DNA of 46,391 nt from an uncultured Pelagibacteraceae bacterium. Lineage in GTDB: Bacteria; Pseudomonadota; Alphaproteobacteria; Pelagibacterales; Pelagibacteraceae. The translations under genes were made by a program, and so were the position numbers. A model generated the notes under the pieces. That model was not told the origin of the DNA. It did not search any database and saw nothing but the letters and a program-made list of their open reading frames with translations. Shown here piece by piece: positions 10,797-31,715 of the stretch (position 1 is its first letter; each line of letters begins with the position of its first letter). Where the stretch lies: contig CACLYO010000009.1 in NCBI GenBank assembly GCA_902611145.1, positions 1 through 46,391 of the forward strand, read 5' to 3'.

Positions 10797-11377
10797 TTTA
10801 TATTATTTAAATATTCCTTAATTTTTTTAACTGGCAAACCCATAATTGTATTTTTATCACCATTAATTTTAGAAAATAAATTCTTTCCTATACCTTCTAT
10901 TTGATAAACATTGTACGCATATAAATCTTCATCTTTAATTTTTGATAAATAAGATTTTAATTCTTTATCATTCATTTGTTTCATAATTAATTCTGCTTTA
11001 TCAGTATAATTCCATATCATTGATCCATTTTTTGATATACAAACAGAACTTATTAAGTGGTGCTTTTTACCATTTAACTTCTTAAGAATTTCCATTGCTT
11101 CTTCTCTACTTGAGGGTTTGGAAATTATTTTTCCATTTAAATCAATAACACTATCAGCACCAATTACTATTTCTCCATTTTTTTTTTGACTTATTTTATT
11201 TGCCTTAAGCTCAGCCAAATTTTTAGATATTATTTCTGGGAAAGCTCCTTCTTTTGTTAAAGAAATTTTTATAGAATCTTCATCAATATTTGCCGGTTCA
11301 ACTGAACATTGAATATTATTATTATTTAAAATTTCTTTTCTTACTTTGCTCTTTGATGCTAAAATAACTTTAAGCAT
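10793..11377 (-). CDS. maf: Maf-family nucleoside triphosphate pyrophosphatase
   Basis: This 194-residue protein opens LKVILASKSKVRKEIL, the Maf signature Ser/Arg motif, and carries VIGADSVIDLNGK with Asp75 and a SREEAMEILKKLNGKKH motif. Maf proteins hydrolyse non-canonical nucleotides such as dTTP, UTP or modified pyrimidine triphosphates and limit their incorporation. The subfamily (YhdE-like or YceF-like) is not assigned. It overlaps ppsR by eight bases and aroE by four, in the conserved origin-proximal cluster. Confidence 0.93.
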   Translation of the reverse strand: MLKVILASKSKVRKEILNNNNIQCSVEPANIDEDSIKISLTKEGAFPEIISKNLAELKANKISQKKNGEIVIGADSVIDLNGKIISKPSSREEAMEILKKLNGKKHHLISSVCISKNGSMIWNYTDKAELIMKQMNDKELKSYLSKIKDEDLYAYNVYQIEGIGKNLFSKINGDKNTIMGLPVKKIKEYLNNIK

Positions 11378-12194
11378 TTTTTTTTTTAATTTCGTACATT
11401 TTAATAATCGAGGCAGCAGTTTCTTCTACAGATTTTCTAGTTACATCTATAACTGGCCATTTATATTTTTGAAAAGTTTTTTTTGACATTTCTACTTCTT
11501 CATTAATTTTTTTTAAGTCAGTATAATTTTTTCCTCTAGATTCATTTAATGTATTCATTCTGGTTTTTCTAATCTCAATTAACCTTTCTGGTTCTACGGT
11601 TAAGCCTACTATACATTTTATACTTTTATTTTTTTTAAGAAAATCAGGTATTGAATTTTCATTTACCAATGGAATATTTGAAACTCTATAACCTTTATTT
11701 GCTAAATATATAGATGTAGGAGTTTTACTTGTTCTACTAACTCCAAGTAAAATTATATCTGACTTTTGTACATCCTCAGTTAAATTGCCATCGTCATGGT
11801 TCATGGTAAATTGTATAGCTTCAATTTTTTTATTGTAATCTCCATCTATCACATATTGGCGGCTTGGAACGTGTAATGCTTCCTGATTAAGTAATTTTGA
11901 AAAACTTAAAATTAAATTTCCTAATACACTAAAACAAGGGACTTTTATTTTATCAGATTCTTTTTTTAAAAATTCTGCTAATTTATCATCAACAATAGTA
12001 TATAAAATAATTGATTTTTTTTGTTTTTTACAAGTTTCCATAATTTTAGATATTTGATTTTCAGTTCTGGTAAATGAAAAATGGTTTGTTTCATAATTAA
12101 AATTTTTAAACTGTGCTTTTAGTGCGATAAAAATTCTATCGAGAGTTTCGCCCGTTGAATCTGATACTAAATAAATTTGATATGAATTATCCAT
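11370..12194 (-). CDS. ppsR: PEP synthase / pyruvate phosphate dikinase regulatory protein (DUF299 kinase-pyrophosphorylase)
   Basis: The 274-residue protein begins with the family motif YLVSDSTGETLDRIF (residues 9-22) and has the nucleotide-binding loop GVSRTSKT at 151-158. This bifunctional enzyme phosphorylates (using ADP) and dephosphorylates a Thr of PEP synthase or pyruvate phosphate dikinase, switching gluconeogenic flux. The target gene is not in the window. It is the RP001-type gene that flanks the replication origin in Caulobacter and Rickettsia, and here too it faces hemE across an AT-rich gap. Confidence 0.93.
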   Translation of the reverse strand: MDNSYQIYLVSDSTGETLDRIFIALKAQFKNFNYETNHFSFTRTENQISKIMETCKKQKKSIILYTIVDDKLAEFLKKESDKIKVPCFSVLGNLILSFSKLLNQEALHVPSRQYVIDGDYNKKIEAIQFTMNHDDGNLTEDVQKSDIILLGVSRTSKTPTSIYLANKGYRVSNIPLVNENSIPDFLKKNKSIKCIVGLTVEPERLIEIRKTRMNTLNESRGKNYTDLKKINEEVEMSKKTFQKYKWPVIDVTRKSVEETAASIIKMYEIKKKNA

Positions 12195-12298
12195 GTATAA
12201 TTTGTTTATAAAAAGTTGATAGTAAACTTATTTAACATAAAATTGAATATTATTGTTTTTTGAGTGAAAAAAACCCATTTAATTAACAATATTACACA

Positions 12299-12307
12299 TG
12301 TTGATAA
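12299..12307 (-). other. DnaA-box-like 9-mer (one mismatch)
   Basis: TGTTGATAA on the plus strand is TTATCAACA on the minus strand, one base from the consensus TTATCCACA. It shares orientation with the two other candidate boxes in the ppsR-hemE gap. The call rests on its position. Confidence 0.4.
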
Positions 12308-12320
12308 TAGTTTTTCATAA

Positions 12321-12329
12321 TGTAGATAA
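12321..12329 (-). other. DnaA-box-like 9-mer (one mismatch)
   Basis: TGTAGATAA reads TTATCTACA on the minus strand, one mismatch to TTATCCACA. It lies 22 bases (about two helical turns) from the preceding candidate and has the same orientation, a spacing compatible with cooperative DnaA binding. Confidence 0.4.
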
Positions 12330-12350
12330 ATTAATATAAATCAAAATCTT

Positions 12351-12365
12351 TTAATTTTTATTTAA
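12351..12365. promoter_or_regulatory. CtrA-type motif TTAA-N7-TTAA
   Basis: TTAA at 12351-12354 and TTAA at 12362-12365 are exactly seven bases apart, the spacing of CtrA half-sites in Caulobacter. A near match with one mismatch (TTAACATAAAATTGA) is at 12232-12246. TTAA is very frequent in this DNA, so chance is a serious alternative. The interest lies in its location in the putative origin. Confidence 0.25.
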
Positions 12366-12383
12366 ATAATTTAAAACATATTT

Positions 12384-12392
12384 TGTGTATAA
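12384..12392 (-). other. DnaA box (fits TTATNCACA)
   Basis: TGTGTATAA on the plus strand is TTATACACA on the minus strand, an exact fit to the relaxed DnaA consensus. It is the best single DnaA site I found in the ppsR-hemE gap and has the same orientation as the two weaker boxes to its left. Confidence 0.55.
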
Positions 12393-12476
12393 ATTATGTA
12401 TTACTGGTTTATAAAAATTAATTAACATTATTAACAGGACTATAATCTAATACTAAACTATTTATATTAATTAAAT

Positions 12477-13493
12477 ATGACCCCTATTAAAACTTGTATT
12501 GTAGATAAAAGTAATAAAAAAAATCCTGTTTGGTTTATGAGACAGGCAGGAAGATATTTACCTGAATTTAGAGAAATAAGAAAAGAAAATCCAAATTTTA
12601 TAGAATTATGTTTAAATAAAAATTTAACACCAGAAATTACTTTACAACCATTAAAAAGATTTGAGCTTGATGCTGCTATAATTTTTTCTGATATTTTAAT
12701 GTTACCATATGGATTAGGACAAAAAGTTGAATTCAAAAAAAACTATGGACCATCACTTGAAGATTTAGATTTAAATAAATTATTAAATGTTAAAGATGAA
12801 GATTTCACTAATAAATTAAAACCAGTATATGATGCAATTAATATTGTATCAAAAGATAAACTTGTAGATGAAAAAGATCTTTTCGGATTTATTGGTGCTC
12901 CCTGGACAATATTTGTTTATATGTTAAATAAAAAATCACCAAAATTAGCTAAAGATTTAAAAAATTCAATTTTTAATAAAATACAAGACAAAGATATACA
13001 GAAGCTTTTAATGATTATTGTAAAATTTTTAAAAATTCATATCAAGAATCAAATAGAAAATGGAGCTTCAATGATTCAAATTTTTGATAGTTGGGCTGGA
13101 TTATTAGAAGAAGAATCATATGAGGATTACATATATAATCCAACAATAGAATTAGTAAATTACACTAAAAAACTTGGGGTTCCTGTAATATGTTTTCCTA
13201 GAAATATTAAAAATTATAAAAAATTCTGTGCAAAAGTAAATCCTAGTGCAGTTAATATTGATTATGAAGTGGATCCTAAAATTATAATTAAAGAAATCAA
13301 AATTCCTATTCAAGGGGGATTAGATCCAAAAATATTACTTAGTGATAAAGATCAACTAAAAAAAGAAGCAAATAAATATTTGGAAATATTTAAAGACCAT
13401 CCATACATATTTAATTTAGGACATGGTGTATTGCCCGAAACAGACCCAAATATGGTAGATTATTTAGTGAAATTAATTAAAGATTTTAAATGA
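12477..13493 (+). CDS. hemE: Uroporphyrinogen decarboxylase
   Basis: The 338-residue TIM-barrel enzyme has the N-terminal signature PVWFMRQAGRYLPEFRE (residues 17-33), catalytic Asp72 in IIFSDILMLPYGLG, the FIGAPWTIF motif and the C-terminal NLGHGVLPETDP. It decarboxylates the four acetate side chains of uroporphyrinogen III to give coproporphyrinogen III. It overlaps hemH by four bases and heads a heme operon with hemH and hemJ. TATAAT occurs at 12441-12446, about 30 bases upstream, without a convincing -35. Its position next to the putative origin matches Caulobacter. Confidence 0.97.
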   Translation: MTPIKTCIVDKSNKKNPVWFMRQAGRYLPEFREIRKENPNFIELCLNKNLTPEITLQPLKRFELDAAIIFSDILMLPYGLGQKVEFKKNYGPSLEDLDLNKLLNVKDEDFTNKLKPVYDAINIVSKDKLVDEKDLFGFIGAPWTIFVYMLNKKSPKLAKDLKNSIFNKIQDKDIQKLLMIIVKFLKIHIKNQIENGASMIQIFDSWAGLLEEESYEDYIYNPTIELVNYTKKLGVPVICFPRNIKNYKKFCAKVNPSAVNIDYEVDPKIIIKEIKIPIQGGLDPKILLSDKDQLKKEANKYLEIFKDHPYIFNLGHGVLPETDPNMVDYLVKLIKDFK

Positions 13494-19368: not shown

Positions 19369-21240
19369 ATGAAAAATGATTTATCATTTGATGTAGTAGT
19401 AATTGGTGGAGGACATGCGGGATGCGAAGCAGCAGCAGCTTCTGCTAGATTAGGAGTTAATACTGCATTGTTCACTAACAAAATAGAAACAATAGGAGAA
19501 ATGTCATGCAACCCAGCAATTGGAGGACTTGGAAAAGGACATTTAGTTAGAGAAATTGATGCTTTAGATGGTGTAATGGGTGATGTTGCAGACAAGTCAG
19601 GGATACAATTTCGGCTTTTAAATAGAAGTAGAGGTCCAGCAGTACGTGGACCAAGAACTCAGTCTGATAGATCATTATACAAAAAATATATGCAAGAAAA
19701 AATGCTAAACTATTGTAATTTAAGCGTTTTTTCGGACTCTGTAATTGGTTTTATTTTTGATAATAATAGCATAAATGGATTTATAACTAGCTCTGGAAAA
19801 AAAATTAAAACATCCAAGCTAATACTAACAACTGGCACTTTTTTAAATGGTTTGATACATATTGGTGAAAAAAAGATCCCAGCTGGAAGATATAATGAAA
19901 AACCAACAACTGGCTTAAGTGAAGAACTTAAAAAGAATAATTTCCAAATAGGAAGATTAAAAACAGGAACACCTCCAAGATTGGACTCTAGGACAATTAA
20001 TTTTGAAAACTTAGAGGAACAGTTTGCAGATGATGATCCATACTTTTTTTCTTTTTTAACAAAGAAAAATTTTAATAAACAAGTTTCATGTAGAATGACA
20101 TATACTAATGATGAGGTTCATAAAATAATTTCAAAAAATATAAAAAGAAGTGCTATCTACTCTGGAACCATTAAGGGGATTGGCCCAAGATACTGTCCAT
20201 CAATAGAAGATAAGGTGGTAAAGTTTTCTAATAAGCATAGACATCAAATATTTCTTGAGCCAGAAGGACTTAATGATTATACAGTTTATCCAAACGGCAT
20301 TTCGACCTCTTTACCAGCTGAAATTCAGACTGAAATATGTAGTAAAATCAAGGGTTTAGAGAATGTTTCTATTTTAAGGCCTGGGTACGCAATAGAATAC
20401 GATTATGTAGATCCAAGGGAGCTTTTTTTAACTTTGGAGACTAAGAAAATCAAAAATTTATACCTTGCAGGTCAAATTAACGGTACTACCGGATATGAGG
20501 AAGCAGCTGCTCAAGGATTAATAGCAGGAATTAACGCTGGATTATCAATTAAAAGTGCTGAACCTTTTATTTTAGATAGATCAGATGCTTATATTGGAGT
20601 TTTGATAGATGATTTAGTTACAAAAGGCGTTGCCGAACCATACAGAATGTTTACATCGAGAGCTGAATATAGGTTAACATTAAGATCAGATAATGCTGAC
20701 TTAAGATTAACAAATAAGGGAATTAATATAGGAATTATCTCAAAGGGCCGAATTAGAGCATTTCATGAAAAATCTAATAATTTAAACAAAACCTTTTTTA
20801 AAATGGAAAAGTTAAAGGTTTCACCATCTAAAATTTCAAAATTTGGTGTTAATATTGCTAAAGATGGAATATCGAGATCATCTACTCAAATTCTAAGCCA
20901 AAAAGGAGTTAATATGGATAAAATAAGAGAAATTTGGCCTGAAATTCCATATATTTCAAAAGAAATTGATGATCAACTTGAAATTAATGCACATTATAGG
21001 GGTTATCTAAAAAAGCAAAATGCAGATATTTTAGCATTTAAGAGAGACGAAAACCTAAAAATACCTCAAAATGTTAATTATGATGATTTGAGTGGCTTAT
21101 CTAACGAAGTTAAATCAAAATTTAAACAAATTAGACCTAAAACTATGGGTCAAGCACTTAGAATAGACGGTATAACTCCAGCAGCAGCATATATTTTGTT
21201 GTCTCACCTTAAAAGAAAGTTTATTAAGCATATAGCTTGA
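19369..21240 (+). CDS. mnmG: tRNA uridine-5-carboxymethylaminomethyl modification enzyme MnmG (GidA)
   Basis: The 623-residue flavoprotein begins with the FAD-binding [21 protein letters not shown] (glycines 13-15, 18). It contains [50 protein letters not shown] with the catalytic Cys, [19 protein letters not shown] and the C-terminal helical domain that contacts MnmE. It is the FAD/NADH partner of MnmE in wobble-uridine modification. Its stop codon overlaps the TTG start of rsmG. The mnmE-mnmG-rsmG-parA-parB order is ancestral in alphaproteobacteria. Confidence 0.97.
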
Positions 21241-21875
21241 TTGATTCGAATTTTATAAAAAACTCAAAACTTGGAATTCAAAATGTTTCACGTGAAACAT
21301 TGGATGAGCTTAATAAATATAGTTTATCAATCTTAAAAAAGAATAAAGAAATAAATCTGATAAGTTCAAGTACAGAAAAGTCAATAAATACAAGGCATAT
21401 TGCTGATAGTGCGCAAACAATTGATTTTATTGATAAAAATGATATTAAAATATGCACTGATCTAGGCTCGGGTGCGGGTTTACCTGGTATAGTTTTGGCC
21501 ATTTTGATGAAACCAAAAAAACCAGAATTTAAAGTCATTTTCTATGAAAAAAGCTATCATAAAAGTAATTTCCTAAAAGAGATTTCAAAAAAATTTAAAT
21601 TGAATACAGAGATTGAACAAAAAAATATCTTTGACCAGAAAAATTTACAGACAGATATTATAATTTCTAGAGCATTTAAACCTTTGCCAGTTATTTTTGA
21701 AATAGCTTCGAAGAATTTTAAAAAATTTAAATATATAATTTTATTTTTAGGAAAAAGTGGAAAAGAAATTCTAAATGAAGCATCAAAAAAATGGAAATTT
21801 GATTATCAAGAAAAAAAAAGTTTAACAAGTGATGAATCATTAGTAGTCAAGATTTCAAATTTAAAAAAAAAATGA
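21237..21875 (+). CDS. rsmG: 16S rRNA (guanine-N7) methyltransferase RsmG (GidB)
   Basis: The 212-residue SAM methyltransferase has the family's N-terminal [14 protein letters not shown] (residues 16-29), then [19 protein letters not shown] and the glycine-rich motif [17 protein letters not shown] near 80-96. It methylates G527 of 16S rRNA. Translation seems to start at TTG (21237), overlapping the mnmG stop as TTGA; no in-frame ATG precedes the conserved motif. Codons 16-21 coincide with a perfect parS site, so this gene segment has a double function. It overlaps parA by four bases. Confidence 0.94.
21284..21299. promoter_or_regulatory. parS: parS centromere site
   Basis: TGTTTCACGTGAAACA is a perfect 16-bp palindrome identical to the widely conserved parS consensus bound by ParB. 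It lies inside the rsmG coding region, spelling Asn-Val-Ser-Arg-Glu-Thr across residues 16-21. It is 573 bases upstream of parA and about 9 kb from the putative origin. A CG-containing palindrome of this length is very improbable by chance in this AT-rich genome. I saw no second TTCACGTGAA core when reading the window. Confidence 0.93.
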
Positions 21876-22672
21876 ATAAAAAAATTATTTCAGTAATTAA
21901 TCAAAAGGGTGGTGTAGGGAAGACTACCACAGTAATTAATTTAGCTGCAGGTTTGACTATGAAGGGAAAAAAAATATTAGTAATTGATCTTGATCCCCAA
22001 GGAAACGCCACAACGGGCCTTGGTCTATCCAATACAGAGAATTCAGAATTGACGATTTATAGTGTACTTAATGGAACCAAAAAAATTTCAGAAGTGGTTC
22101 AATCAACTAAGTTTGAAAATTTAAATTTGGTCACTTCAAATGTAGATCTCTCAGGTTTAGAGGTTGAGACAGCCGGAGACAGTCGTAGAGCCTTCAAATT
22201 GAAAGACGAATTAGCCTCTATTTTAAATGATTCTGGAGTATCATATGATTATATACTAATTGATTGTCCTCCATCACTCAGTCTTCTGACAATTATGGCA
22301 TTGGTAGCATCTGACGAACTTGTGGTCCCATTACAGACAGAATTTTTTGCGCTAGAAGGCCTTACGCAGTTAATGAAGACAATCGAAAGGATAAAGTCTA
22401 ACTTAAATTCATCTCTCAACATAAGAGGCATCATTCTCACGATGTATGACAAGAGAAACAAGTTATCGGGGGAAGTAGAACGAGAAGCTAGAAACTATTT
22501 CAAAGAAAAAGTTTATCAAACAGTAGTACCTAGAAATGTAAGACTGTCTGAAGCACCATCTCATGGTGTTCCCGTTTTACTTTATGACAAAAGTTGTCCG
22601 GGTAGTAAATCTTATTTTTCTTTTACTGATGAATTTTTAAATCAAGATAAAATCGTGGAGAGCGCAGCATGA
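21872..22672 (+). CDS. parA: Chromosome partitioning ATPase ParA
   Basis: The 266-residue protein has the deviant Walker A KGGVGKTT at residues 12-19 (ISVINQKGGVGKTTTVINLAAG), a VIDLDPQGNATTGLG switch region, YILIDCPPSLSLLT and the C-terminal helix region RNVRLSEAPSHG. It is a chromosomal (Soj-type) ParA with no N-terminal DNA-binding domain. It forms ATP dimers on DNA that pull ParB-parS complexes. Its start overlaps rsmG and its stop overlaps the parB start, so rsmG-parA-parB are coupled. Codons around 22130-22600 are somewhat more GC-rich than the neighbours. Confidence 0.96.
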   Translation: MNKKIISVINQKGGVGKTTTVINLAAGLTMKGKKILVIDLDPQGNATTGLGLSNTENSELTIYSVLNGTKKISEVVQSTKFENLNLVTSNVDLSGLEVETAGDSRRAFKLKDELASILNDSGVSYDYILIDCPPSLSLLTIMALVASDELVVPLQTEFFALEGLTQLMKTIERIKSNLNSSLNIRGIILTMYDKRNKLSGEVEREARNYFKEKVYQTVVPRNVRLSEAPSHGVPVLLYDKSCPGSKSYFSFTDEFLNQDKIVESAA

Positions 22673-23520
22673 TGAATCCATTTAAAAATAAAAAAGGATT
22701 AGGCAGGGGACTTTCTTCTTTAATAGGCGATGTAAAAACATCATCAGTAAATAATAATTTATCATTAAGTGATATTATTAGAAATAGATTTCAGCCAAGG
22801 AAAAATTTTGACAAAACTCAACTAGAAGATCTTTCAAATTCAATAAAAGAAAGAGGAGTAGTTCAGCCAATTATTGTTAGAAAATCTCAACAGACCTCTG
22901 GCAAGTATGAGATAATTGCAGGAGAAAGAAGATGGCTTGCATCTCAAAATGCAGGGCTACACGAAATTCCAGCAGTAATTATTGAGGCTGACGACTTAAA
23001 ATCTCTAGAGTTTGCTATAGTTGAAAATGTTCAAAGACATGATCTTAACTCTATTGAAGAAGCACAAGGTTATCAAAGATTAATGGATGAGTTTGATTAT
23101 GATCAGGAGAAGGTAGCTAAATTTATTGGAAAAAGCAGAGCTCATGTAGCTAATTGCATTAGACTATTATCTTTGCCAAATGATGTTATTAAATTAATTG
23201 AGACTGATCAATTATCACAAGGACATGCTAAAATTTTAGTTGGTCTAGAAAATGCCTATTTGTTTGCTAAAAAAATTATTCAAAAAAAACTCTCAGTTAG
23301 ACAATCTGAAAATTTAGTAAGATTATTCAAAAATCCGAAAAAATCTAAAATTATTAATAATTTTTCTAATCTTAGAGATTTAGAGGATATATTAGAAAAA
23401 AAATTAGGTATTAGAGTATCAATCAAAAACAAAAAAAATAATTCAGGCTCAATAGTTTTTGATTATAAAGATTTAGATCAACTTAATAGATTAATAGAAA
23501 TTATTAAATCTAATTATTAA
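22669..23520 (+). CDS. parB: Chromosome partitioning protein ParB (CTPase, parS-binding)
   Basis: The 283-residue protein opens with the ParA-stimulating KGLGRGLSSLIGD (residues 9-21). The CTP-binding motifs are present: GVVQPIIVRK, GERRWLA at 85-91 and ENVQRHDLN at 119-127. A central HTH around 148-168 (KVAKFIGKSRAHVANCIRLL) binds parS, and the C-terminus provides the dimer domain. ParB loads at parS as a CTP-dependent clamp. Two ATG codons (22669 and 22672) are possible starts. The 3' end overlaps holA convergently by 11 bases. Confidence 0.96.
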   Translation: MMNPFKNKKGLGRGLSSLIGDVKTSSVNNNLSLSDIIRNRFQPRKNFDKTQLEDLSNSIKERGVVQPIIVRKSQQTSGKYEIIAGERRWLASQNAGLHEIPAVIIEADDLKSLEFAIVENVQRHDLNSIEEAQGYQRLMDEFDYDQEKVAKFIGKSRAHVANCIRLLSLPNDVIKLIETDQLSQGHAKILVGLENAYLFAKKIIQKKLSVRQSENLVRLFKNPKKSKIINNFSNLRDLEDILEKKLGIRVSIKNKKNNSGSIVFDYKDLDQLNRLIEIIKSNY

Positions 23521-31133: not shown

Positions 31134-31715
31134 ATGAGTAAATCAGTAGTTAATATAATAGATTTTCCAGTTTTGTATAATATTCTTTCTGAATTGAAAG
31201 ATTTTTTACATTTTGAAATAATGAATTATGAAAATGAAAATGCATTTTTAGAAGAAATTCAAAAAGAAAGCTCAATTAAAAATTATACAATTATTACTAA
31301 AAATCTTTTAAATAGCAATAATATAAACCAAAAAAGTATTATTCATTTAGATAATACACCAATAAATTTTACTTTATTGATTGATAAAATAAATACAAAT
31401 TTGCTGAAGCAAAGATTTAGTTTTCAGTCAAATATTAATATTAAAGATTATAGTTTAAACTTAAATTCTAGAATTATTTCAAATAAAAAAAATGAGTTAA
31501 AACTTACTGAAAGAGAAATTGAAATTATTTTATTTCTTAAAGATAAAAAAAAACCTCAAAATATAAATATATTACAAAAAGAAGTTTGGAGTTATGTAGG
31601 AGGCCTAGAAACACATACTGTTGAAACTCATATTTATAGATTGAGAAAAAAAATAAGTGATAAATTTAATGATAATAATTTTATAGTAAGTTTAAAAGAA
31701 GGTTATTTAATTTAG
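31134..31715 (+). CDS. Orphan winged-helix (OmpR-type) regulator with degenerate receiver-like N-terminus
   Basis: Of 193 residues, roughly 100-193 form a Trans_reg_C winged helix: ELKLTEREIEIILFLKDKK, then INILQKEVWSYVGGLETHTVETHIYRLRKKISDKF and IVSLKEGYLI, a near-canonical OmpR/PhoB DNA-binding end. Residues 1-95 have the size of a receiver domain but no recognisable phospho-accepting Asp pocket (no DD near the start, no D-x-x-L-P motif, no K in the usual context). It may therefore act without phosphorylation. No histidine kinase is adjacent. It diverges from the L,D-transpeptidase gene, a plausible target, and is followed immediately by the ArfA-like gene. Confidence 0.8.
   Translation: MSKSVVNIIDFPVLYNILSELKDFLHFEIMNYENENAFLEEIQKESSIKNYTIITKNLLNSNNINQKSIIHLDNTPINFTLLIDKINTNLLKQRFSFQSNINIKDYSLNLNSRIISNKKNELKLTEREIEIILFLKDKKKPQNINILQKEVWSYVGGLETHTVETHIYRLRKKISDKFNDNNFIVSLKEGYLI

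Follow-up and report, generated by a model that had tools for sequence, protein, structure and literature searches.

A probable hemE/COG1806-type chromosomal origin with a BUS-like core beside hemE in SAR11 (Pelagibacteraceae)

The window analysed here, a stretch of 46,391 bp, belongs to contig C9 in a draft genome of 1,125,476 bases (29 contigs, 84% complete), whose nearest named relatives are single-cell genomes and MAGs of the Pelagibacteraceae, with HemE identities of at most 71%, which places it in SAR11. Two genes, ppsR on the left (COG1806/DUF299, RP001-type; 11370-12194, minus strand) and hemE on the right (12477-13493, plus strand), point away from an intergenic gap of 282 bp at 12195-12476, the putative chromosome origin. 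Profile matches confirmed both families and the divergent arrangement reported in the earlier note (PF03618 299 bits and NF003742 309 bits for ppsR; TIGR01464 323 bits against a cut-off of 303 for hemE). The gap is 85.5% A+T, as compared to 73.1% across the window. Counting rightwards from the gap, rho is the fourth gene, and the parABS system had correctly been placed about 9 kb to the right: parA (21872-22672, plus strand; AAA_31 213 bits) and parB (22669-23520, plus strand; ParB_N and HTH_ParB) together span 21872-23520, and a parS-like palindrome, TGTTTCACGTGAAACA, lies at 21284-21299 on the plus strand (an exact 16-bp match, with 0.16 expected at up to three mismatches). This palindrome sits 8.8 kb right of the gap, within the 5' part of an ORF at 21237-21875 that we take to be rsmG; the labels rho, rsmG, hemH and ChvI are our own assignments from protein sequences. 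Of 31 named Pelagibacteraceae loci, several of them too short to reach that far, 19 carry the 14-bp core of TGTTTCACGTGAAACA to the right of hemE, at a distance of 7-11 kb.

The hemE gene was detected in 52/61 genomes of the genus and 122/147 of the family, and 78 loci were compared, namely the best 58 matches (own included) and 20 picked for genus diversity. A divergent ppsR stands beside hemE in 58/58 of the best-match loci and 18/20 of the diversity loci, the gap between them measuring 255-297 bp, with a median of 281. The two exceptions, L075 and L076, are distant URO-D genes of genus g9 at other chromosomal places. Across the Alphaproteobacteria both families were present in 75/114 genomes, not counting G278, which has a hemE fragment only, and they were divergent neighbours within 3 kb in 67 of these 75, own included. 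The divergent hemE/COG1806 pair with an intergenic gap, which marks the alphaproteobacterial hemE/COG1806-type origin, is found in the window. A block AAGCTTCAATTTTA near alignment offset 150 is kept in a subset of the genus gaps and absent from the window, and in one one-contig genome hemE lies in two pieces with an internal stop (G100:C1:358206-359185).

Taking as DnaA boxes all 9-mers with at most one mismatch to TTATNCACA, and scoring their conservation at that threshold in 57 other aligned gaps, we found five in the gap. Four are on the minus strand: TTATAAACA beside ppsR (12203-12211; 35/57), TTATCAACA (12299-12307; 15/57), the unconserved TTATCTACA (12321-12329; 4/57) and TTATACACA (12384-12392; exact TTATNCACA; 28/57). 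The fifth, the core box TTATTAACA on the plus strand (12428-12436; family consensus TTATTCACA), is the best conserved, being kept in 49/57 gaps and exact TTATNCACA in 30/57. The earlier note had listed three same-orientation 9-mers, those at 12299, 12321 and 12384. All three are present on the minus strand, but only that at 12384 is moderately conserved; its exact fit to the consensus was rightly noted, whereas the two best-conserved boxes, at 12428 and 12203, had been overlooked. The alignment among relatives that had been proposed as a check therefore shows the gap and its DnaA boxes kept family-wide, mostly through boxes other than the three named.

Three boxes alone are weak evidence in 85% A+T DNA, since first-order Markov copies of the gap contain at least three one-mismatch boxes in 7.8% of cases (P ~0.08); all five are better, at least five occurring in 0.29%. 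The count of such 9-mers over the whole window is at the shuffled level and it is their clustering that stands out: within the 46 kb, five boxes per 280-bp window were found only in windows overlapping this gap. Across 76 gaps the mean was 4.2 boxes per gap (1 to 7), as compared to 0.88 in composition-matched simulated sequence, and the background in sampled stretches was 0.35 per 280-bp window (16,920 windows). Among 224 gaps of at least 200 bp between ORFs, taken from 2.4 Mb of six genomes and possibly including RNA or small genes, ranks 1-3 of box density were held by the three sampled hemE gaps (3.9-6.2 per 280 bp; next 2.4). The locus thus carries the above-background cluster of DnaA boxes that belongs to a hemE/COG1806-type origin.

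A conserved core, missed by the earlier note, adjoins hemE and has the form TGTTnATAA-N13-TTATTCACA-N4-(NTA)n. In the window it begins with GGTTTATAA (12406-12414, minus strand), a degenerate copy of the inverted element TGTTnATAA, which starts 22 nt ahead of the core box; a weak box, TAATTAACA (12419-12427, plus strand), stands in tandem with the core box and corresponds to a TAAT block that is conserved, C at -2 included. The DnaA-trio-like triplets CTA-ATA-CTA follow 10 nt past the core box (12447-12455, plus strand) as an in-phase run of three, and an A+T-rich stretch, where early opening is presumed, reaches up to the hemE start (12456-12476). The family profile was anchored on the hemE-side box alone in 65/76 gaps (at least 7 of 9 matches); the other 11, without such a box in the searched place, were left out. 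It shows TGTTnATAA at -22, the TAAT block and the C at -2 right before TTATTCACA, and after it four loosely kept bases and TA at +14/15, +17/18, +20/21 and +23/24, with mostly C or A between them. When box and triplets were fitted jointly, the spacer was 4 in 58/76 gaps. In-phase [CA]TA runs of at least three occurred in 43/76 gaps and of at least four in 29/76. In 200 dinucleotide-shuffle sets the number with runs of at least three averaged 9.6 and never exceeded 16, and such runs were present in 4/486 control upstream segments, which include three hemE gaps. In 30 further named gaps the box was found at 7 of 9 or better in 26, the triplet run of at least three in only 12. Set against the family consensus, the core in the window is the weaker one, with TTATTAACA in place of TTATTCACA and three in-phase triplets, another CTA being out of phase; its tandem boxes and triplets appear to be a somewhat decayed version of the family core. 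A similar box-like stretch and CCTAATA precede hemE in L300 and L301 (Rickettsiales), where the sequence retrieved showed no ppsR.

The DnaA of the draft genome aligns to the solved DnaA 8btg, which we take to be that of Bacillus subtilis, with 303 bits, and keeps the RDHTTV motif. The published rule for the basal unwinding system (BUS) asks for a box, a spacer of 0-16 nt and at least three triplets 3'-NAN-5', often with tandem boxes (PMC8287927, in excerpt). Measured against TTATCCACA, with up to two mismatches allowed for one box and four for a second, TTATTAACA has two and TAATTAACA three, and three 3'-NAN-5' triplets lie at 12447-12455, 10 nt from the box and so within the 16 nt of this permissive rule. 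The SAR11 core shares with the B. subtilis BUS (boxes 6/7 and DnaA-trios) the tandem boxes, the short spacer, the three-base repeats and a fixed A on the 3'-5' strand of the triplets (PMC8287927). The triplets differ, being mostly ATA/CTA in SAR11 (3'-TAT/GAT-5') as compared to the published consensus 3'-GAT-5' (PMC8287927), and, unlike the B. subtilis BUS, the putative SAR11 core lies beside hemE, far from dnaA.

Genus g9 offers the locus without hemE. There ppsR was found in 7/8 genomes; in 7/7 of these rho is the next gene, hemE is absent from the locus and the gap measures 346-353 bp. In these loci (L350-L356) hemE and the two genes that follow it in the window are missing between the origin and rho, and distant URO-D genes occur elsewhere in g9 genomes. 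A triplet block (CTAATAATA and similar) stands 117-123 nt before rho, with in-phase runs of at least three in 5/7 and of two otherwise, and TGTTTATA lies about 56 nt ahead of it in 6/7. A box directly before the triplets was found at up to one mismatch in only 2/7 (TTATAAACA, spacer 4), and at up to two mismatches within 16 nt of them in 7/7, mostly as TTAACCCCA. The triplet block thus outlives hemE in g9, in weaker form, and its persistence without hemE argues against a pure hemE promoter.

Strand skew was sampled in six one-contig genomes of the same genus, each with 20 stretches of 20 kb, and pooled in hemE orientation. The right-minus-left contrasts of GC skew, of gene strand and of third-position skew averaged over both gene strands all peaked at the hemE gap. 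On a finer grid the GC-skew optimum was at +0.02, with a flat top (0.094 as compared to 0.093 at hemE); its bootstrap 95% interval was -0.02 to +0.02 of the genome, which is optimistic because the six genomes are related and hence not independent, and 0/500 permutations reached the hemE value. Optima in single genomes were -0.02 (G123), +0.02 (G103), -0.02 (G012), +0.11 (G063), 0.00 (G086) and +0.01 (G095). The skew is weak (contrast about 0.09), G063 alone peaks as far off as +0.11, and the minimum of G103 is broad. Within the window, cumulative skew does not reach a clear minimum at the gap, where it stands at -1.52, with -1.55 near 44 kb. The skew check proposed in the earlier note thus came out in its favour, as a sign switch at hemE in six pooled relatives rather than in the draft genome itself, and the A+T enrichment and skew switch of a hemE/COG1806-type origin are both present, the latter taken from these six relatives. 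One paper reports that coverage in SAR11 is V-shaped with a single origin, the locus of which is not stated in the excerpts of PMC9589681. What can be read directly from the sequences is where the gap lies, how it is conserved, its box density, the switch of skew in relatives and the build of the core.

The claimed synteny with the Caulobacter and Rickettsia origins was borne out, the hemE/COG1806 flanks being the same in the excerpts of PMC1914354. Cori of Caulobacter crescentus (hemE - CC0001/COG1806) shares the flanking genes and has DnaA boxes in the gap (PMC1914354); it is 404 bp long with five CtrA sites and an IHF site (PMC1914354), whereas the SAR11 gap is 282 bp, with no CtrA gene in the genomes searched and no placed CtrA site. 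The Rickettsia prowazekii origin (RP885 hemE - RP001) likewise has the same flanks and an A+T-rich gap, 82.55% there (PMC1914354); it is 384 bp long as compared to 282 bp here, and CtrA sites are predicted in Rickettsia origins (PMC1914354). The TTAA-N7-TTAA motif of the earlier note, a possible hint of CtrA, occurs 15 times in the window with 17.3 expected, and at that place in 0/57 other gaps; over 76 gaps it reached 0.43 per gap as compared to 0.26 simulated (sd of simulated means 0.05), in no fixed place. A search with the CtrA model gave nothing over the cut-off in 12/12 genomes, while 1 of 14 control genomes passed, and a published survey, in the part at hand, agrees that a ctrA ortholog is absent from Pelagibacter (PMC2877005). 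With the motif at chance level, no CtrA over the cut-off and the survey in agreement, CtrA control of the gap was rejected. The gap thus departs from the hemE/COG1806 type in its CtrA sites, which we treat as optional because related origins without them have been reported (PMC1914354). GcrA is present in 12/12 genomes, and GANTC sites are absent from 74/76 gaps. The draft genome has three OmpR-type regulator matches: one is nearest to the sortase-system/CreB models and one to OmpR, both below cut-offs, and the third is the diverged window gene at 31134-31715. This gene encodes a diverged OmpR-type winged helix with no recognised receiver domain; seven one-contig g1 genomes have a similar match on the hemE side, at 17-20 kb from hemE, and G065, G069, G082 and G100 have one on the ppsR side, at a distance of 27-28 kb, which may be another gene.

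The TATAAT-like, TA-rich block beside hemE may also be read as the promoter of hemE in place of an origin core. The end of the box and the hemE start are 29-68 nt apart, TATAAT stands at 12441-12446 in the window's block, promoter-like matches are present (e.g. 12431-12459), and in g9, where hemE is missing, a weaker box precedes the triplets (up to one mismatch in the 2/7 given above). Such matches are, however, no commoner than in shuffles (4 as compared to 5.7), three-base periodicity is no promoter feature and is lacking upstream of other genes (the 4/486 above), and all seven g9 loci without hemE keep the triplets 117-123 nt ahead of rho, with runs of at least three still in five. We therefore regard this reading as improbable, and the roles of promoter and origin core could coexist in the block. 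That the gap is the origin but opens elsewhere within it, the NTA triplets not being DnaA-trios, seems to us unlikely. The whole gap is 85% A+T, and origins of the E. coli type are said to open in another way. The BUS rule, 3'-NAN-5' three times, is permissive (PMC8287927), so that A+T-rich DNA meets it easily; the triplets, however, are regularly conserved next to the best-conserved box, in the published order of box, spacer of at most 16 nt and triplets.

Another reading puts the origin at dnaA, with the hemE gap merely titrating DnaA or serving regulation. In seven one-contig g1 genomes the two genes are separated by only 60-64 kb, so that both are close to the skew switch, and the contrast at dnaA is 0.080 as compared to 0.093 at hemE. 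The bootstrap interval nevertheless excludes dnaA at +0.046, and no box cluster was found there, with zero boxes (up to one mismatch) in the 516 bp before the draft genome's own dnaA and, in gaps near dnaA sampled in G063 and G086, 0 boxes in 403 bp and 2 in 584 bp. An origin on the dnaA side is accordingly held to be very unlikely. Chance boxes in an ordinary A+T-rich spacer would account for the three 9-mers taken alone, at the P of about 0.08 in Markov copies, but length, boxes and core are conserved in 76 loci and the box density tops 224 gaps, which leaves this explanation a negligible probability.

We conclude with good confidence that the gap is the chromosomal origin of a SAR11 (Pelagibacteraceae) genome, of the hemE/COG1806 type, with a BUS-like core on the hemE side and with CtrA control lost. 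The earlier call of a candidate origin is upheld in that the gap is very probably the origin, and it is the conservation among relatives, the box density and the skew that decide. DnaA binding, unwinding at the hemE side and strand use are predictions of this reading. DnaA would bind several near-consensus boxes, the hemE-proximal tandem pair at 12419-12436 being decisive; starting at this pair, an oligomer of DnaA would extend along a single strand of the NTA triplets (12447-12455), stretching that strand and opening the A+T-rich stretch before hemE, as in the B. subtilis BUS. Control by CtrA at the gap would have been lost.

The wider class was examined in 71 gaps, comprising 39 of 66 other gaps and 32 named ones, with one genome represented twice (G257/L321). 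NTA triplets were not enriched outside SAR11 (1/39 class gaps as compared to 0.3 simulated, maximum 3). CTACTAC was found in 11 of the 71 gaps in the forward direction (hemE strand) and in none in reverse, with a Markov mean of 0.56 and a maximum of 3; requiring the box as well as the repeat, a stricter pattern, left only 3 in the forward direction (simulated mean 0.39, maximum 3), and the box-plus-triplet score exceeded the simulated 99th percentile in 12/71. The CTACTAC excess in other Alphaproteobacteria is suggestive, the motif having been picked post hoc on the same gaps. Whether SAR11 has reduced a CtrA-governed hemE-type origin to a core that is unwound by a hemE-side BUS, ancestral in Alphaproteobacteria and independent of hemE, is in our view evenly balanced. 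Such a BUS would consist of inverted and tandem DnaA boxes and NTA triplets, with triplets of the CTACTAC type in some of the other lineages.

Origins of the hemE type and BUS are both already known. What is added here is a SAR11 origin that is kept across the family, apparently free of CtrA and precisely outlined at its core, together with a natural instance of a triplet block outliving hemE. In titles and abstract openings of the literature on the SAR11/Pelagibacter origin and on alphaproteobacterial/Caulobacter DnaA-trios we recognised no description of this core, and supplements may hold an origin or BUS prediction for Pelagibacter. Few cell lineages in the ocean are as abundant as SAR11, and metagenomic growth estimates use origin-to-terminus coverage. 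A short, conserved and defined origin core may give coverage-based growth rates a fixed point of reference, and offer a small substrate for testing initiation without CtrA.
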